Source of the DNA: Cytophagales bacterium Alg240-R148
Lineage (GTDB): Bacteria; Bacteroidota; Bacteroidia; Cytophagales; Cyclobacteriaceae
Direction of reading: 5' to 3'
Length of the DNA: 64,000 nt
NCBI GenBank assembly: GCA_900537185.1
Contig: LS999829.1
Coordinates: 275 to 64,274 of the forward strand
Under the pieces are notes generated by a model. It made no database searches, was not told the origin of the DNA, and saw only the letters and a program-made list of their open reading frames with translations. Below are positions 30,352 to 34,557 of the stretch, in pieces (position 1 is the stretch's first letter; the number at the start of each line of letters is the position of its first letter). A program made the position numbers and the translations under genes.

Positions 30352-30424
<73 letters not shown>

Positions 30425-30454
30425 CATAATAAAACTGACTATCCAATAGTCGAT

Positions 30455-30539
30455 GCCCGGGTGGTGGAATTGGTAGACACGCAGGACTTAAAATCCTGTG
30501 GCCTTTGCGGCCGTGCGGGTTCAAGTCCCGCCCCGGGTA
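30455..30539 (+). tRNA. tRNA-Leu (anticodon TAA)
   Basis: 85 nt with a long variable arm (class II). Acceptor GCCCGGG/CCCGGGT, anticodon loop ACTTAAAAT reading UUA, T arm GCGGG-TTCAAGT-CCCGC, discriminator A. It lies 30 bp after tRNA-Gly, on the same transcript. Confidence 0.97.
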
Positions 30540-30551
30540 CAAGAAAAAATC

Positions 30552-30738: not shown

Positions 30739-30768
30739 TTGTTTATTTGGTTATTCTTGTTAAGTTTA
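30739..30768 (+). promoter_or_regulatory. Candidate promoter of the Cys-rich peptide gene
   Basis: TTG at 30739-30741, 19 nt, TAAGTTTA at 30761-30768 (one base off TAnnTTTG). Places the transcription start about 90 bp before the ATG. Confidence 0.45.
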
Positions 30769-30789
30769 TTTTATTGTATTTGTGAATTT

Positions 30790-30801
30790 TTTACCGGTAA
30801 A
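30790..30801. promoter_or_regulatory. Perfect palindrome TTTACCGGTAAA, possible operator
   Basis: A 12-bp palindrome just after the inferred transcription start and 66 bp before the peptide ATG. Its half-site matches those at 24362 ahead of the LiaF-like operon. Confidence 0.4.
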
Positions 30802-30867
30802 CTTTTTTCAAGCGATGGCCGAAAAGCTTATACAATAGAGTAGGCACCATTCAATTACACTAATAAA

Positions 30868-31086
30868 ATGAAAAATTCATTCAGAACACTCTTGTTCGTT
30901 GTTCCTGTTTTGGCCCTTTCGTTGGCCTTTACTACTGCAGACAAATCCGAAAAAACAGCTCCAATTGTTGATGAGGGCTGGGTTTGTTGTACCGTTTCTT
31001 CAGCTGACAGTGAAGTTACCAGCTGCAGGGCCGATGGCAACTTGCGCAAGGCATGTAGAACAGCCAGAGGACTTATCATGTTATAA
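30868..31086 (+). CDS. Small secreted Cys-rich peptide, 72 aa
   Basis: A clear signal peptide (MKNSFRTLLFVVPVLALSLA, cut near residue 24) precedes a mature part of about 48 residues with four cysteines: EGWVCCTV, EVTSCRAD and RKACRTA, ending in GLIML. This is a sensible layout for a secreted peptide held by two disulfides. No known family is recognised. A strong terminator sits 8 bp after the stop and the GLPGLI and barrel genes follow, so the peptide mRNA should be more abundant than theirs. A 63-aa frame over the same bases lacks a signal peptide and is set aside. Function unknown; bacteriocin-like, signalling or binding roles are all open. Confidence 0.7.
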   Translation: MKNSFRTLLFVVPVLALSLAFTTADKSEKTAPIVDEGWVCCTVSSADSEVTSCRADGNLRKACRTARGLIML

Positions 31087-31094
31087 TTAATATT

Positions 31095-31127
31095 GGAGCA
31101 CTTGTACAAGTGCTCCTACTTTTTTTA
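31095..31127 (+). terminator. Strong terminator or attenuator between peptide and GLPGLI genes
   Basis: GGAGCACTTG-TA-CAAGTGCTCC is a 22-bp perfect palindrome followed by TAC and seven or more T. Partial read-through would give high peptide and low downstream expression. Confidence 0.85.
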
Positions 31128-31143
31128 AATCAACCCATTACTT

Positions 31144-31932
31144 ATGAATTTCAAAGGATTTTTTGCCCTATTTTTGTGTAGTTTCTCCTGCATATGTTTT
31201 TCGAGCACGGCCCAGACCGATCAAATCATTGTCGAATACAATGTGATTAAAAACTACATACAATCAACCTACCACTTGGTACACCAAGACGAATTGAGTT
31301 ATTGGAAGGAAATAACAGAACCAGAATTGATCAATAACAACATCAATTATGCAGGCAAATCCAACTACGAAAAAGAAGCTCTTTTTAAGGATTTAAAAAA
31401 CAACACCATGTTTTCTAAATACAAAGTTCTTGAGAAGATGTTTTATGTGAAAGATCCGCTTCCAGCCGTAGAATGGGAAATATTGGACTCTACAACCGTA
31501 TTTTTGGGATACCAATGCCAATTGGCTAAAACCCGATTTAGAGGCCGCAGCTATCTGGCCCTTTATTCCACTGAAATTGCCGCAGCCAATGGACCTTGGA
31601 AGTTCAGTGGACTGCCCGGCCTGATCTTAAAAGTATCTTCTATGGGTGGTTACGAAGCTTATGTTTTTGAATGTACCAAGATCACCCAAACCAAAAAGGA
31701 AAACTTAAACAAAGCCTATCTTAATTATGTGAAAGAAAATAAGAAAAAAGAATTTATTAGTTGGGAAACCTTTACATCCGGTATGTGCGATCATATTGAA
31801 AACTATAAAAAGATTTTGATTTCTTCACAAGAAGCCGACGACTCGGGGTACAGCTTAAATTTCAAAGCAAAAAACTATATGGAAATATTCAATGAACCCT
31901 TGCAAACAGAAGGCATCACCATGCAATTTTAA
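31144..31932 (+). CDS. GLPGLI family protein
   Basis: 262 aa. Signal peptide (MNFKGFFALFLCSFSCICFSS, then TAQ), then a beta-rich domain with the diagnostic WKFSGLPGLILKV near residue 155-167. GLPGLI proteins are Bacteroidota-only exported proteins of unknown function. They are commonly encoded next to TonB-receptor-like or carboxypeptidase-regulatory proteins, exactly as here: the next gene starts 9 bp later. The Cys-rich peptide gene is just upstream. A shared role in peptide handling at the outer membrane is inference. Confidence 0.92.
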   Translation: MNFKGFFALFLCSFSCICFSSTAQTDQIIVEYNVIKNYIQSTYHLVHQDELSYWKEITEPELINNNINYAGKSNYEKEALFKDLKNNTMFSKYKVLEKMFYVKDPLPAVEWEILDSTTVFLGYQCQLAKTRFRGRSYLALYSTEIAAANGPWKFSGLPGLILKVSSMGGYEAYVFECTKITQTKKENLNKAYLNYVKENKKKEFISWETFTSGMCDHIENYKKILISSQEADDSGYSLNFKAKNYMEIFNEPLQTEGITMQF

Positions 31933-31941
31933 ACCAACCCA

Positions 31942-34557
31942 TTGAGTAATAAAATACGCTGTAGCGCCTTTTTTGCATTTATACTGAGCACCATCCCTTT
32001 GTTTTTATCTGCTCAAACCATCTTTGGAACCATCCAAGATGCAAACGGGCGTGCAATACCATCGGCCAACTTACTTCTACGACAGGAGCCGGGTGCTGCT
32101 GTTTCTGAATTTAAAATTGTCGACAACGGTCGTTTCCAATTCTCCCTAAAAAAAGAATACGACACCCTCTACTTGGAAGCCAGCAGTTTTAATTTCAAAC
32201 GCAGTTTTAAAAAGATCTATGATTTAAAAAAAAACGTCCAATATGAATTTAACTTTGTACTCGAAGAAAAAGAGCCCAGAGTACTGGACGAGTTGGTTAT
32301 TCTTACCCGGCCATTGCCCATTCTTGAAAAAAAAGATACGTTAACTTATAATCCGGATAGTTTTAAAGATGGAACAGAAGAAAAAGTAGAAGACCTATTA
32401 AGCAAACTACCAGGCATTGATGTGAACGCAGTAACCGGAGAGATTCAATACAAAGGAAAATCGGTGGAAACCGTCCTTTTAGAAGGAGACAACCTTTTTG
32501 GCTACAATTACACTTTAGGCACGCGCAACATCGATGTGGGCATGGTAGAACAAGTTGAGGCCATAGACCACTACATTGAAAACCCTTTGCTCCAAGCCAT
32601 CGAATCTAGCGACAAAGTAGTTCTCAATTTAAAATTAAAAAAAGGCAAGTTCGACTTTTCCGGAAATGTCGAAATAGGCGCAGGTGCTTTTGTTGAATCC
32701 AAATGGGCCCGTACATTGGACTTTAACTTATTGGGCATCACCAAAGGGTATAAATCGTTTGCTACTGCATCGCACAACAACATTGGCCACAACCCTACTC
32801 CTTTTGATTATTTTGGATTTTCTAATGGAACGGAACAAATGCAACAACCTATGCTATGGGCCAAAAAAATCATTCCTGAGACAACTTTTTTAAGCCAAAT
32901 ACCGGATGAAAGAAGCAATATCAACGAGCAATATTTCGCTAATTACAATGCTATATTTAGGATAAACAAAACGCTTAATATCAAAACCAACCTCTATTAT
33001 CTACAGGACGATCTGTACAACCAAGAAATTTTAACCACACAATACCGCTTCAGCGACCAACAATTGAATACCCAAGACCAGACAACTTGGAACAAAAGAC
33101 CAACTAACAAACGTTTTGAAACCACTCTCCAATGGAATACCCACAAAAATGCCCTATTGGAATACGAGCTAAAATTGGGAGCAGAATCCATCCAAACCAG
33201 CAGCAATGTATTGCAAAACAACACTACCAACTTTAGCACAACGTTGGATTCTAAAAATGATATTCAATACCACAAATTGATGTATACCCACAAGATAGCA
33301 GCACAACAAGCATTACAATTGTCTTATCTTAACTCCAGAAACAAGGCCCCGCAAAGCCTCATAATAGACTCTCCTGAAGCAGACACCCTCCAGTCGGTTA
33401 AACAACAGAGCCAGTTTAACAACAACTACCAATTGGCTGAAATGTCTTGGTTGTCGGCTAATTCCCTAGGCAAATGGAAAGTGAACCTAGGCTTTGAACA
33501 AAAAACGACCCCTTACCAATCTGAGGTGTTTTCCTTCCAAAACAATTTCAGTTACCAACAAAAAAACATCTACCAAAGCACCACCTTCGATTTCAAAAAA
33601 AACAAAATAGGTTTCCAGGCTTTTTACAAGCTCAAACACCTCAATTTAATCTTAGAAGACAACAACGCCAACCACTGGATTGTTGAGGGAAAAGTCAACC
33701 TCCGGTATAAAACTGGCCAGCATTCCAAAATGGACTTTTTCTGGAACCGGAACCAAAAACCCAATAGCGAAGCCTATTTATTCCCACAACCGGTGATCAT
33801 CAACAGCCGAACTACTTTAATTGGCAACCCAGGCTTGGACCTTAGGAAAATCCAATCTTTCACTTTGAACTATCAATTGCACGATGTGTATAACCTGTTT
33901 AAGTTGAATGGAAAGGCCACTTATGCCAGCATGCTTGGCAATAGTTATTCAAATAATATTTACGGTGAAAAAAATACAGTAACCGAATATTTCTTTCTAA
34001 AGGAACGTAACGAACAACTGGGCATTGAACTTGATATTAGCAAATTCAGCCCTGCTTTGGGCAGTACTTTCCGACTGTCCAGTGCACTTCACCAATTAAA
34101 ATATAAAAATAGGGTCAATTTATCGGAGCTAAGAAACAACCAACACACCCTATTCAACCAAGCCTTATTTTTCAAAACTGGCTGGGACTTTCCGATGAAT
34201 TTCGAAAACATTTTTAAATGGCAGCACAGCTTGAGCAGCAGCCAAAATCAATTTACCAACAATGCCTTCAACAACACATTTAAGGCCATTTTTAAGCCAC
34301 ACAAAAATTACCATGTATTTCTAAAATACGAATGGTACCTGCCCAACACCAACCATGCCAACGACAACTACCACTTTTGGGACTTTTCCATTCGCTACCA
34401 CCCTACCAATCGCAAACTTTCTTGGCAACTATTCCTTAAAAACATCGGCCAACAAAATTTCTTAATAGAAACCAAAACCAACGACGCTTTTATTGCAGAG
34501 AATCAAAAATCACTGCTACCTGCCCACGCCATGTTCAAAATAGCCTTCTCTTTTTAA
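31942..34557 (+). CDS. TonB-receptor-like outer membrane protein with CarboxypepD_reg domain
   Basis: 871 aa, apparently starting at TTG 31942, since no ATG precedes the signal peptide (RCSAFFAFILSTIPLFLSAQ). A CarboxypepD_reg-like domain (about 25-105, TIFGTIQDANGRAIPSANLLL) leads into a plug-like segment (about 150-230: VEDLLSKLPGIDVNA, VETVLLEGDNLFGYNY, VEQVEAIDHY) and a long beta-barrel ending in a C-terminal Phe (FKIAFSF). No SusD partner is present, so it is not a standard polysaccharide locus. The 9-bp gap to the GLPGLI gene implies one transcript. Substrate unknown; TonB box not identified. Confidence 0.85.
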   Translation: MSNKIRCSAFFAFILSTIPLFLSAQTIFGTIQDANGRAIPSANLLLRQEPGAAVSEFKIVDNGRFQFSLKKEYDTLYLEASSFNFKRSFKKIYDLKKNVQYEFNFVLEEKEPRVLDELVILTRPLPILEKKDTLTYNPDSFKDGTEEKVEDLLSKLPGIDVNAVTGEIQYKGKSVETVLLEGDNLFGYNYTLGTRNIDVGMVEQVEAIDHYIENPLLQAIESSDKVVLNLKLKKGKFDFSGNVEIGAGAFVESKWARTLDFNLLGITKGYKSFATASHNNIGHNPTPFDYFGFSNGTEQMQQPMLWAKKIIPETTFLSQIPDERSNINEQYFANYNAIFRINKTLNIKTNLYYLQDDLYNQEILTTQYRFSDQQLNTQDQTTWNKRPTNKRFETTLQWNTHKNALLEYELKLGAESIQTSSNVLQNNTTNFSTTLDSKNDIQYHKLMYTHKIAAQQALQLSYLNSRNKAPQSLIIDSPEADTLQSVKQQSQFNNNYQLAEMSWLSANSLGKWKVNLGFEQKTTPYQSEVFSFQNNFSYQQKNIYQSTTFDFKKNKIGFQAFYKLKHLNLILEDNNANHWIVEGKVNLRYKTGQHSKMDFFWNRNQKPNSEAYLFPQPVIINSRTTLIGNPGLDLRKIQSFTLNYQLHDVYNLFKLNGKATYASMLGNSYSNNIYGEKNTVTEYFFLKERNEQLGIELDISKFSPALGSTFRLSSALHQLKYKNRVNLSELRNNQHTLFNQALFFKTGWDFPMNFENIFKWQHSLSSSQNQFTNNAFNNTFKAIFKPHKNYHVFLKYEWYLPNTNHANDNYHFWDFSIRYHPTNRKLSWQLFLKNIGQQNFLIETKTNDAFIAENQKSLLPAHAMFKIAFSF

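Follow-up and report, generated by a model that had tools for sequence, protein, structure and literature searches.

A secreted cysteine peptide, a GLPGLI protein and a TonB-dependent-transporter-like barrel as a candidate peptide transport system in Cytophagales bacterium Alg240-R148

Introduction

GLPGLI proteins form a widespread Bacteroidota family without an assigned job, and the question raised by the locus described here is whether one of them works with a small secreted peptide and an outer-membrane barrel. The locus lies in a 64,000-nucleotide stretch of the genome of Cytophagales bacterium Alg240-R148 (assembly GCA_900537185.1, contig LS999829.1, positions 275 to 64,274), which is referred to as the window. 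An earlier note on this DNA had proposed that a 72-amino-acid (aa) peptide with a signal and four cysteines, followed by a strong terminator, may be the substrate of a downstream GLPGLI protein and TonB-receptor-like barrel. The parts of the locus, in window coordinates, are as follows:

30868..31086, + strand: secreted peptide precursor, 72 aa, Sec-type, four cysteines, core WVCCTVSSADSEVTSCRADGNLRKACRTARG (open reading frame (ORF); homolog at the equivalent place in locus L037)
31095..31126, + strand: hairpin and T-run between the peptide and GLPGLI genes (fold, z -2.6; most equivalent gaps alike)
31144..31932, + strand: GLPGLI protein, 262 aa, signal peptide and LolA/RseB-like bowl domain (TIGR01200; AlphaFold2 (AF2) model)
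31942..34557, + strand: TonB-dependent-transporter-like barrel, 871 aa, TTG start, N-terminal CarboxypepD_reg-like domain and plug (ORF, AF2, Foldseek)

The order on the one strand is peptide, hairpin, GLPGLI and barrel, with stop-to-start gaps of 57 and 9 bp, and the genes named in the earlier note were recovered, the peptide ORF having a signal-like N terminus and the GLPGLI and barrel genes being identified by TIGR01200 and by fold, respectively. We regard the peptide, the GLPGLI protein and the barrel as one functional system, with a probability of about 0.85; on the favoured reading the locus encodes an outer-membrane transport system dedicated to its peptide, most likely one that secretes a bacteriocin- or pheromone-like product.

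Results

Secreted cysteine peptides precede a subset of GLPGLI genes

A tblastn search of 98 related genomes with the window peptide gave no convincing relative, the matches being weak and most of them lying inside other genes or containing stops. Pfam and NCBIfam searches with this peptide and those of its relatives returned nothing significant; the NVEALA and DUF6520 Pfam profiles did not match the window peptide up to E 1, and one relative's peptide had a weak match to DUF6520 (E 0.05). Because the variability of the peptide defeats such direct searches, GLPGLI relatives served as anchors. They came from three sources: 148 genomes belonging to the family, the 80 closest named loci found across 84,980 species, and 148 phylum genomes searched with TIGR01200. 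An upstream peptide was scored if it had 40-130 aa, a signal-like N terminus and at least two cysteines, and lay no more than 250 bp away. This search for small cysteine-rich frames in many genomes, which the earlier note had suggested as a check, found a peptide at 45/271 GLPGLI genes compared with 8/394 control genes from the same loci (17/106 in the phylum set, 16/140 in the closest loci and 12/25 in the family). The Fisher p of 7e-12 for the summed sets is to be read as an indication, since the loci are related and the counts are not independent. When barrels served as anchors, an upstream cysteine peptide was found in 1/126. A barrel follows 42 of the 50 peptide-GLPGLI pairs, directly or past further GLPGLI genes, with gap quartiles of 54 and 75 bp. 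When 108 GLPGLI proteins were placed on a tree, those with a peptide grouped together (14 changes of the label versus a shuffled mean of 17.8, with 4/500 shuffles as low).

The closest relative of the locus is in Psychroflexus tropicus (L037), where the gene order is the same, the GLPGLI protein is 42% identical over 256 aligned positions and the barrel 38% identical. Its upstream peptide (87 aa, secreted) ends in ...GDWACCTVTRNGGSATVCRRDGNVGRACREARRL, the window peptide in ...GWVCCTVSSADSEVTSCRADGNLRKACRTARGL; the two share 47% identity over 36 aa (E 6.6e-6) and, judged by sequence, are clearly homologous. Searching the genus Psychroflexus with the L037 peptide led to two more (L219 and L220), each directly ahead of GLPGLI and barrel genes, with 15-18 of 20 leader residues in common and differing cores. 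Species-specific cores were also seen elsewhere: of the genomes in their respective genera, 1/118 held the L060 peptide and 1/199 the L189 peptide. Conservation of the peptide upstream of GLPGLI pairs, on which the earlier note had made its proposal depend, is therefore found in part: the position is kept in a subset of pairs, including the L037 homolog, and the sequence is variable, with most GLPGLI genes lacking a detectable peptide.

Similarity of the cores grows with GLPGLI identity (Mantel r 0.43, 0/2000 permutations as high; leader r 0.16; the L062 survey peptide, which looks spurious, was left out), a co-variation to which shared species history adds. In locus L070, three related peptides each stand ahead of their own GLPGLI gene with a single barrel at the end, and L199 is arranged likewise. 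Because these arrays repeat the peptide and GLPGLI genes before one barrel, GLPGLI appears to be the peptide-specific element and the barrel the common part.

Two further loci (L077 3332-4549 and L111 3289-4507) hold cysteine peptides whose leaders are long and hydrophobic. GLPGLI comes directly after the peptide and is followed by propeller-like or signal-peptidase genes; neither peptide has a Pfam or NCBIfam match.

A hairpin separates the peptide and GLPGLI genes

The window hairpin (31095-31116) has nine pairs, five of them GC, and a 4-nt loop followed by TACTTTTTTT, with a folding z of -2.6; a GC stem and T-run of this kind are the sequence features of an intrinsic terminator, as the earlier note had recognised. 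Hairpins recur at the equivalent place, z being below -2 in 33/43 peptide-GLPGLI gaps (median -3.0) compared with 32/240 (13%) control sites in front of other GLPGLI ORFs (median 0.0). The stems are often perfect or near-perfect, about 10-20 bp long and unrelated to each other in sequence. A stem with a T-run was present in 11/47 gaps, where 1.0 was expected. Since many of the gap hairpins have no long T-run, both attenuation and mRNA stabilisation are possible, and the window hairpin may be a terminator/attenuator, with some transcription presumably reading through it, or an mRNA-stabilising stem.

The GLPGLI protein has a predicted bowl fold and the barrel that of a TonB-dependent transporter

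The window GLPGLI protein matches TIGR01200 with 117 bits (cut-off 50, E 1e-33), and its AF2 model (pLDDT 83.6) has the unclosed beta-barrel or bowl fold of LolA/LolB/RseB-like carriers. The model is most similar to the N-terminal bowl of PNGF-II (VIA Z 14-15 over 170 residues), with LolA, RseB and ependymin-type proteins more distant (Z 8-9; LolA and RseB over about 130-145 residues). In a sequence search with the A3 profile PNGF-II was reached at 1.5e-6, and PDB entry 7zgn is deposited as a 'Glpgli family protein'. The N-terminal bowl of PNGF-II-type glycanases (7zgn, 4r4x, 4r4z) is a GLPGLI homolog by both profile and fold, and the family therefore has solved structures. LolA and PNGF-II-bowl folds hold ligands; from the model, GLPGLI may do so too and is likely a peptide-binding periplasmic partner.

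The AF2 model of the barrel (pLDDT 87.7) comprises an N-terminal domain, a plug and a long-stranded barrel of about 22 strands, as in TonB-dependent transporters (TBDTs), whose structures it matches with Foldseek E values to 7e-17 and VIA Z of 13-15. The N-terminal residues 26-107 resemble CarboxypepD_reg (PF13620, E 5.8e-6) at 27 bits, below the curated cut-off of 32.3. An L(D/K)E(V/L)(V/I)-like stretch, considered as a possible TonB box, is conserved ahead of the plug in the barrel alignment.

GLPGLI genes also occur in RiPP clusters of Bacteroidales

TIGR04148, TIGR04149 and TIGR04150 mark clusters of Bacteroidales for ribosomally synthesised and post-translationally modified peptides (RiPPs) that are modified by radical S-adenosylmethionine (rSAM) enzymes (PMC4573289). 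A phylum survey with TIGR04148 gave no match, nor did the genome of the window at an E threshold of 1e-60, so the linkage was examined in genomes known to contain GLPGLI loci, a biased set; because this set is small and was picked through GLPGLI, no frequency is claimed. Loci L231, L235/L238 and L236 have the order TIGR04149 precursor, GLPGLI, TIGR04148 rSAM maturase, TIGR04150 and C39 ATP-binding cassette (ABC) exporter, flanked at one end by a barrel, and hairpins lie between precursor and GLPGLI in L237, L238 and L231. As GLPGLI is common to Sec-type and ABC-type peptides, its step most likely comes after the inner membrane. In L233 (7820-14204) a 6-bladed propeller lipoprotein (DUF5128) stands behind each TIGR04149 precursor in place of GLPGLI. 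This locus encodes a HlyD adaptor and, within 15 kb, no barrel; the propeller lipoproteins are a possible functional replacement of GLPGLI.

Behind one of three RiPP precursors in L237, a 271-aa ORF with an FDTGC stretch (2069-2884) occupies the GLPGLI place, and has no Pfam or NCBIfam match.

Setting of the window locus

Upstream of the operon are genes for tRNA-Gly and tRNA-Leu (30352-30540), preceded by an 880-aa ORF whose sequence suggests mutS. The operon thus stands behind two tRNAs and its closest relative belongs to another order (Psychroflexus) and not to the window's own family. Horizontal gain of the operon is possible; no convincing direct repeat of a tRNA end, as in an island, was found flanking it. 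A sigma-ABfr-like promoter (TAnnTTTG) is absent upstream in the window and is not enriched among relatives (11/45 versus 8.5 expected). A 17-nt stretch, TTTTAAA(T/C)CAACCCATT, lies ahead of both the GLPGLI and the barrel starts (31123-31139 and 31927-31943; 16/17 identical), possibly a shared translation-initiation region. The same genome carries a second such locus (L214 1365-5436, contig C4, about 290 kb), with two different secreted cysteine peptides, a GLPGLI gene and a barrel.

Discussion

A proposed export route and its alternatives

The peptide would be made in excess and exported by Sec to the periplasm, where its cysteines probably pair in disulfides. GLPGLI and barrel would be supplied by the minority of transcripts that the hairpin lets pass, or by a 3' part processed separately. 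The periplasmic GLPGLI protein would bind its own peptide in its PNGF-II-bowl/LolA-type cavity and hand it to the TBDT-like barrel, which would pass it through the outer membrane. Binding of the peptide, its hand-off, the direction of transport, the disulfides and what the peptide does biologically are all inferred from sequence and models. Carriage of the peptide by GLPGLI between periplasm and barrel, outward being the more likely direction, has in our estimate just short of an even chance. Outward transport has likewise been argued for Oar and PopC (PMC6434023) and proposed for the TonB-receptor-like proteins of graspetide loci (PMC8939145).

Several points weigh against this route. TBDTs normally import. 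For most GLPGLI genes, among them clades that have a barrel, no peptide was detectable, and large clades are wholly without one. The peptide link is therefore confined to part of the family, and a carrier role is not the whole story for GLPGLI. The L236 cluster encodes a HlyD adaptor as well as a barrel, and HlyD with TolC could export the peptide without the barrel. Co-duplication of peptide and GLPGLI fits a toxin and its immunity protein equally well. The earlier note's proposal is supported in part: gene order, a typical spacing of 54-75 bp, hairpin, co-variation, co-duplication and the RiPP clusters favour a system of peptide, GLPGLI and barrel, in which the barrel may transport the peptide, and such a system is not general to GLPGLI.

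If the peptide were a bacteriocin, GLPGLI could sequester it as a cognate periplasmic immunity protein, with the barrel as exporter, target or receptor. The species-specific cores, their co-variation with GLPGLI and the paired duplication would suit this, as would tandem GLPGLI genes without a peptide, which resemble orphan immunity arrays; we consider it a serious alternative, though less likely than export, as GLPGLI is tightly linked to the barrel and not to the peptide alone, and many GLPGLI genes stand directly before a barrel without any peptide. Another serious alternative, somewhat less likely again, is that the peptide leaves the cell elsewhere and is recaptured by the barrel, with GLPGLI receiving it in the periplasm; it could then be, for instance, a metal-binding or signalling peptide. 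The TBDT fold, an N-terminal domain like that of SusC and other importers, and the HlyD adaptor of L236, which could serve for export, speak for uptake, whereas no second outer-membrane exporter was seen beside the Sec-type loci examined.

The tight, constant linkage, with one peptide per GLPGLI in the arrays, would also fit a peptide that is not transported and belongs to a GLPGLI-barrel complex as its lid, its regulator, or a periplasmic or surface subunit. This we hold improbable, since cores vary far more than GLPGLI, several different peptides may share a barrel, and RiPP precursors occupy the same place. That the peptide gene is a small ORF lying by chance next to an ordinary GLPGLI-barrel pair, as the tblastn result among the 98 relatives might suggest, is largely refuted by the L037 homolog together with the enrichment, hairpins and co-variation, and is very improbable.

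Significance

Reading the locus as a peptide transport system gives part of the GLPGLI family a specific, testable role with a peptide partner. We tentatively extend it, with somewhat more doubt than confidence, to a GLPGLI subfamily whose members would each act in the periplasm as chaperone for a cognate peptide, the secreted peptides together being a large and hypervariable arsenal. With an Oar-type barrel these proteins would make up an undescribed two-step secretion system accepting peptides from Sec or C39 ABC exporters. In the open-access literature (subscription papers and preprints being outside the search) GLPGLI is mentioned in three papers and in none of them with peptides; within this searchable literature, neither the family of maturase-free Sec-type peptides nor its link with GLPGLI appears to have been described. 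TBDTs, TIGR04149 RiPPs and LolA-type folds are known. The peptide class is outside all Pfam and NCBIfam models, and genome mining for new bacteriocins or signals may look upstream of GLPGLI. The locus also bears on whether TBDTs export.

Comparison with known systems

The TIGR04149 RiPP clusters share with the window a short cysteine precursor directly before GLPGLI, a hairpin between them and a barrel nearby, but the window peptide has a Sec-type signal, without a double-glycine (GG) leader, NCBIfam match, rSAM maturase or C39 exporter, and no TIGR04148 maturase was seen alongside. In graspetide loci of Bacteroidetes, fast-evolving precursors likewise occur with TonB-receptor-related outer-membrane proteins, proposed as their exporters (PMC8939145); these loci differ in needing ATP-grasp maturases, and GLPGLI (pfam09697, TIGR01200) is unnamed in that paper. 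The bowl of PNGF-II and 7zgn, LolA, LolB and RseB shares the fold of the window GLPGLI protein, which lacks the glycanase domain of PNGF-II. The SusC/SusD and RagA/RagB importers also combine a TBDT barrel with an accessory protein in Bacteroidota, whereas the window has no SusD-like lipoprotein but a partner with a LolA/PNGF-II-bowl fold and a plain signal peptide, preceded by a peptide gene. Secretion of PopC in Myxococcus xanthus, argued to depend on Oar, involves a barrel of CarboxypepD_reg, plug and TBDT architecture, which the window barrel with its CarboxypepD_reg-like N terminus may share, and a substrate that is periplasmic before it crosses the outer membrane (PMC6434023). PopC differs in being a large protease without a signal peptide, and no GLPGLI partner has been described for Oar; the window system would pair such a barrel with a small Sec-type peptide and a GLPGLI protein.

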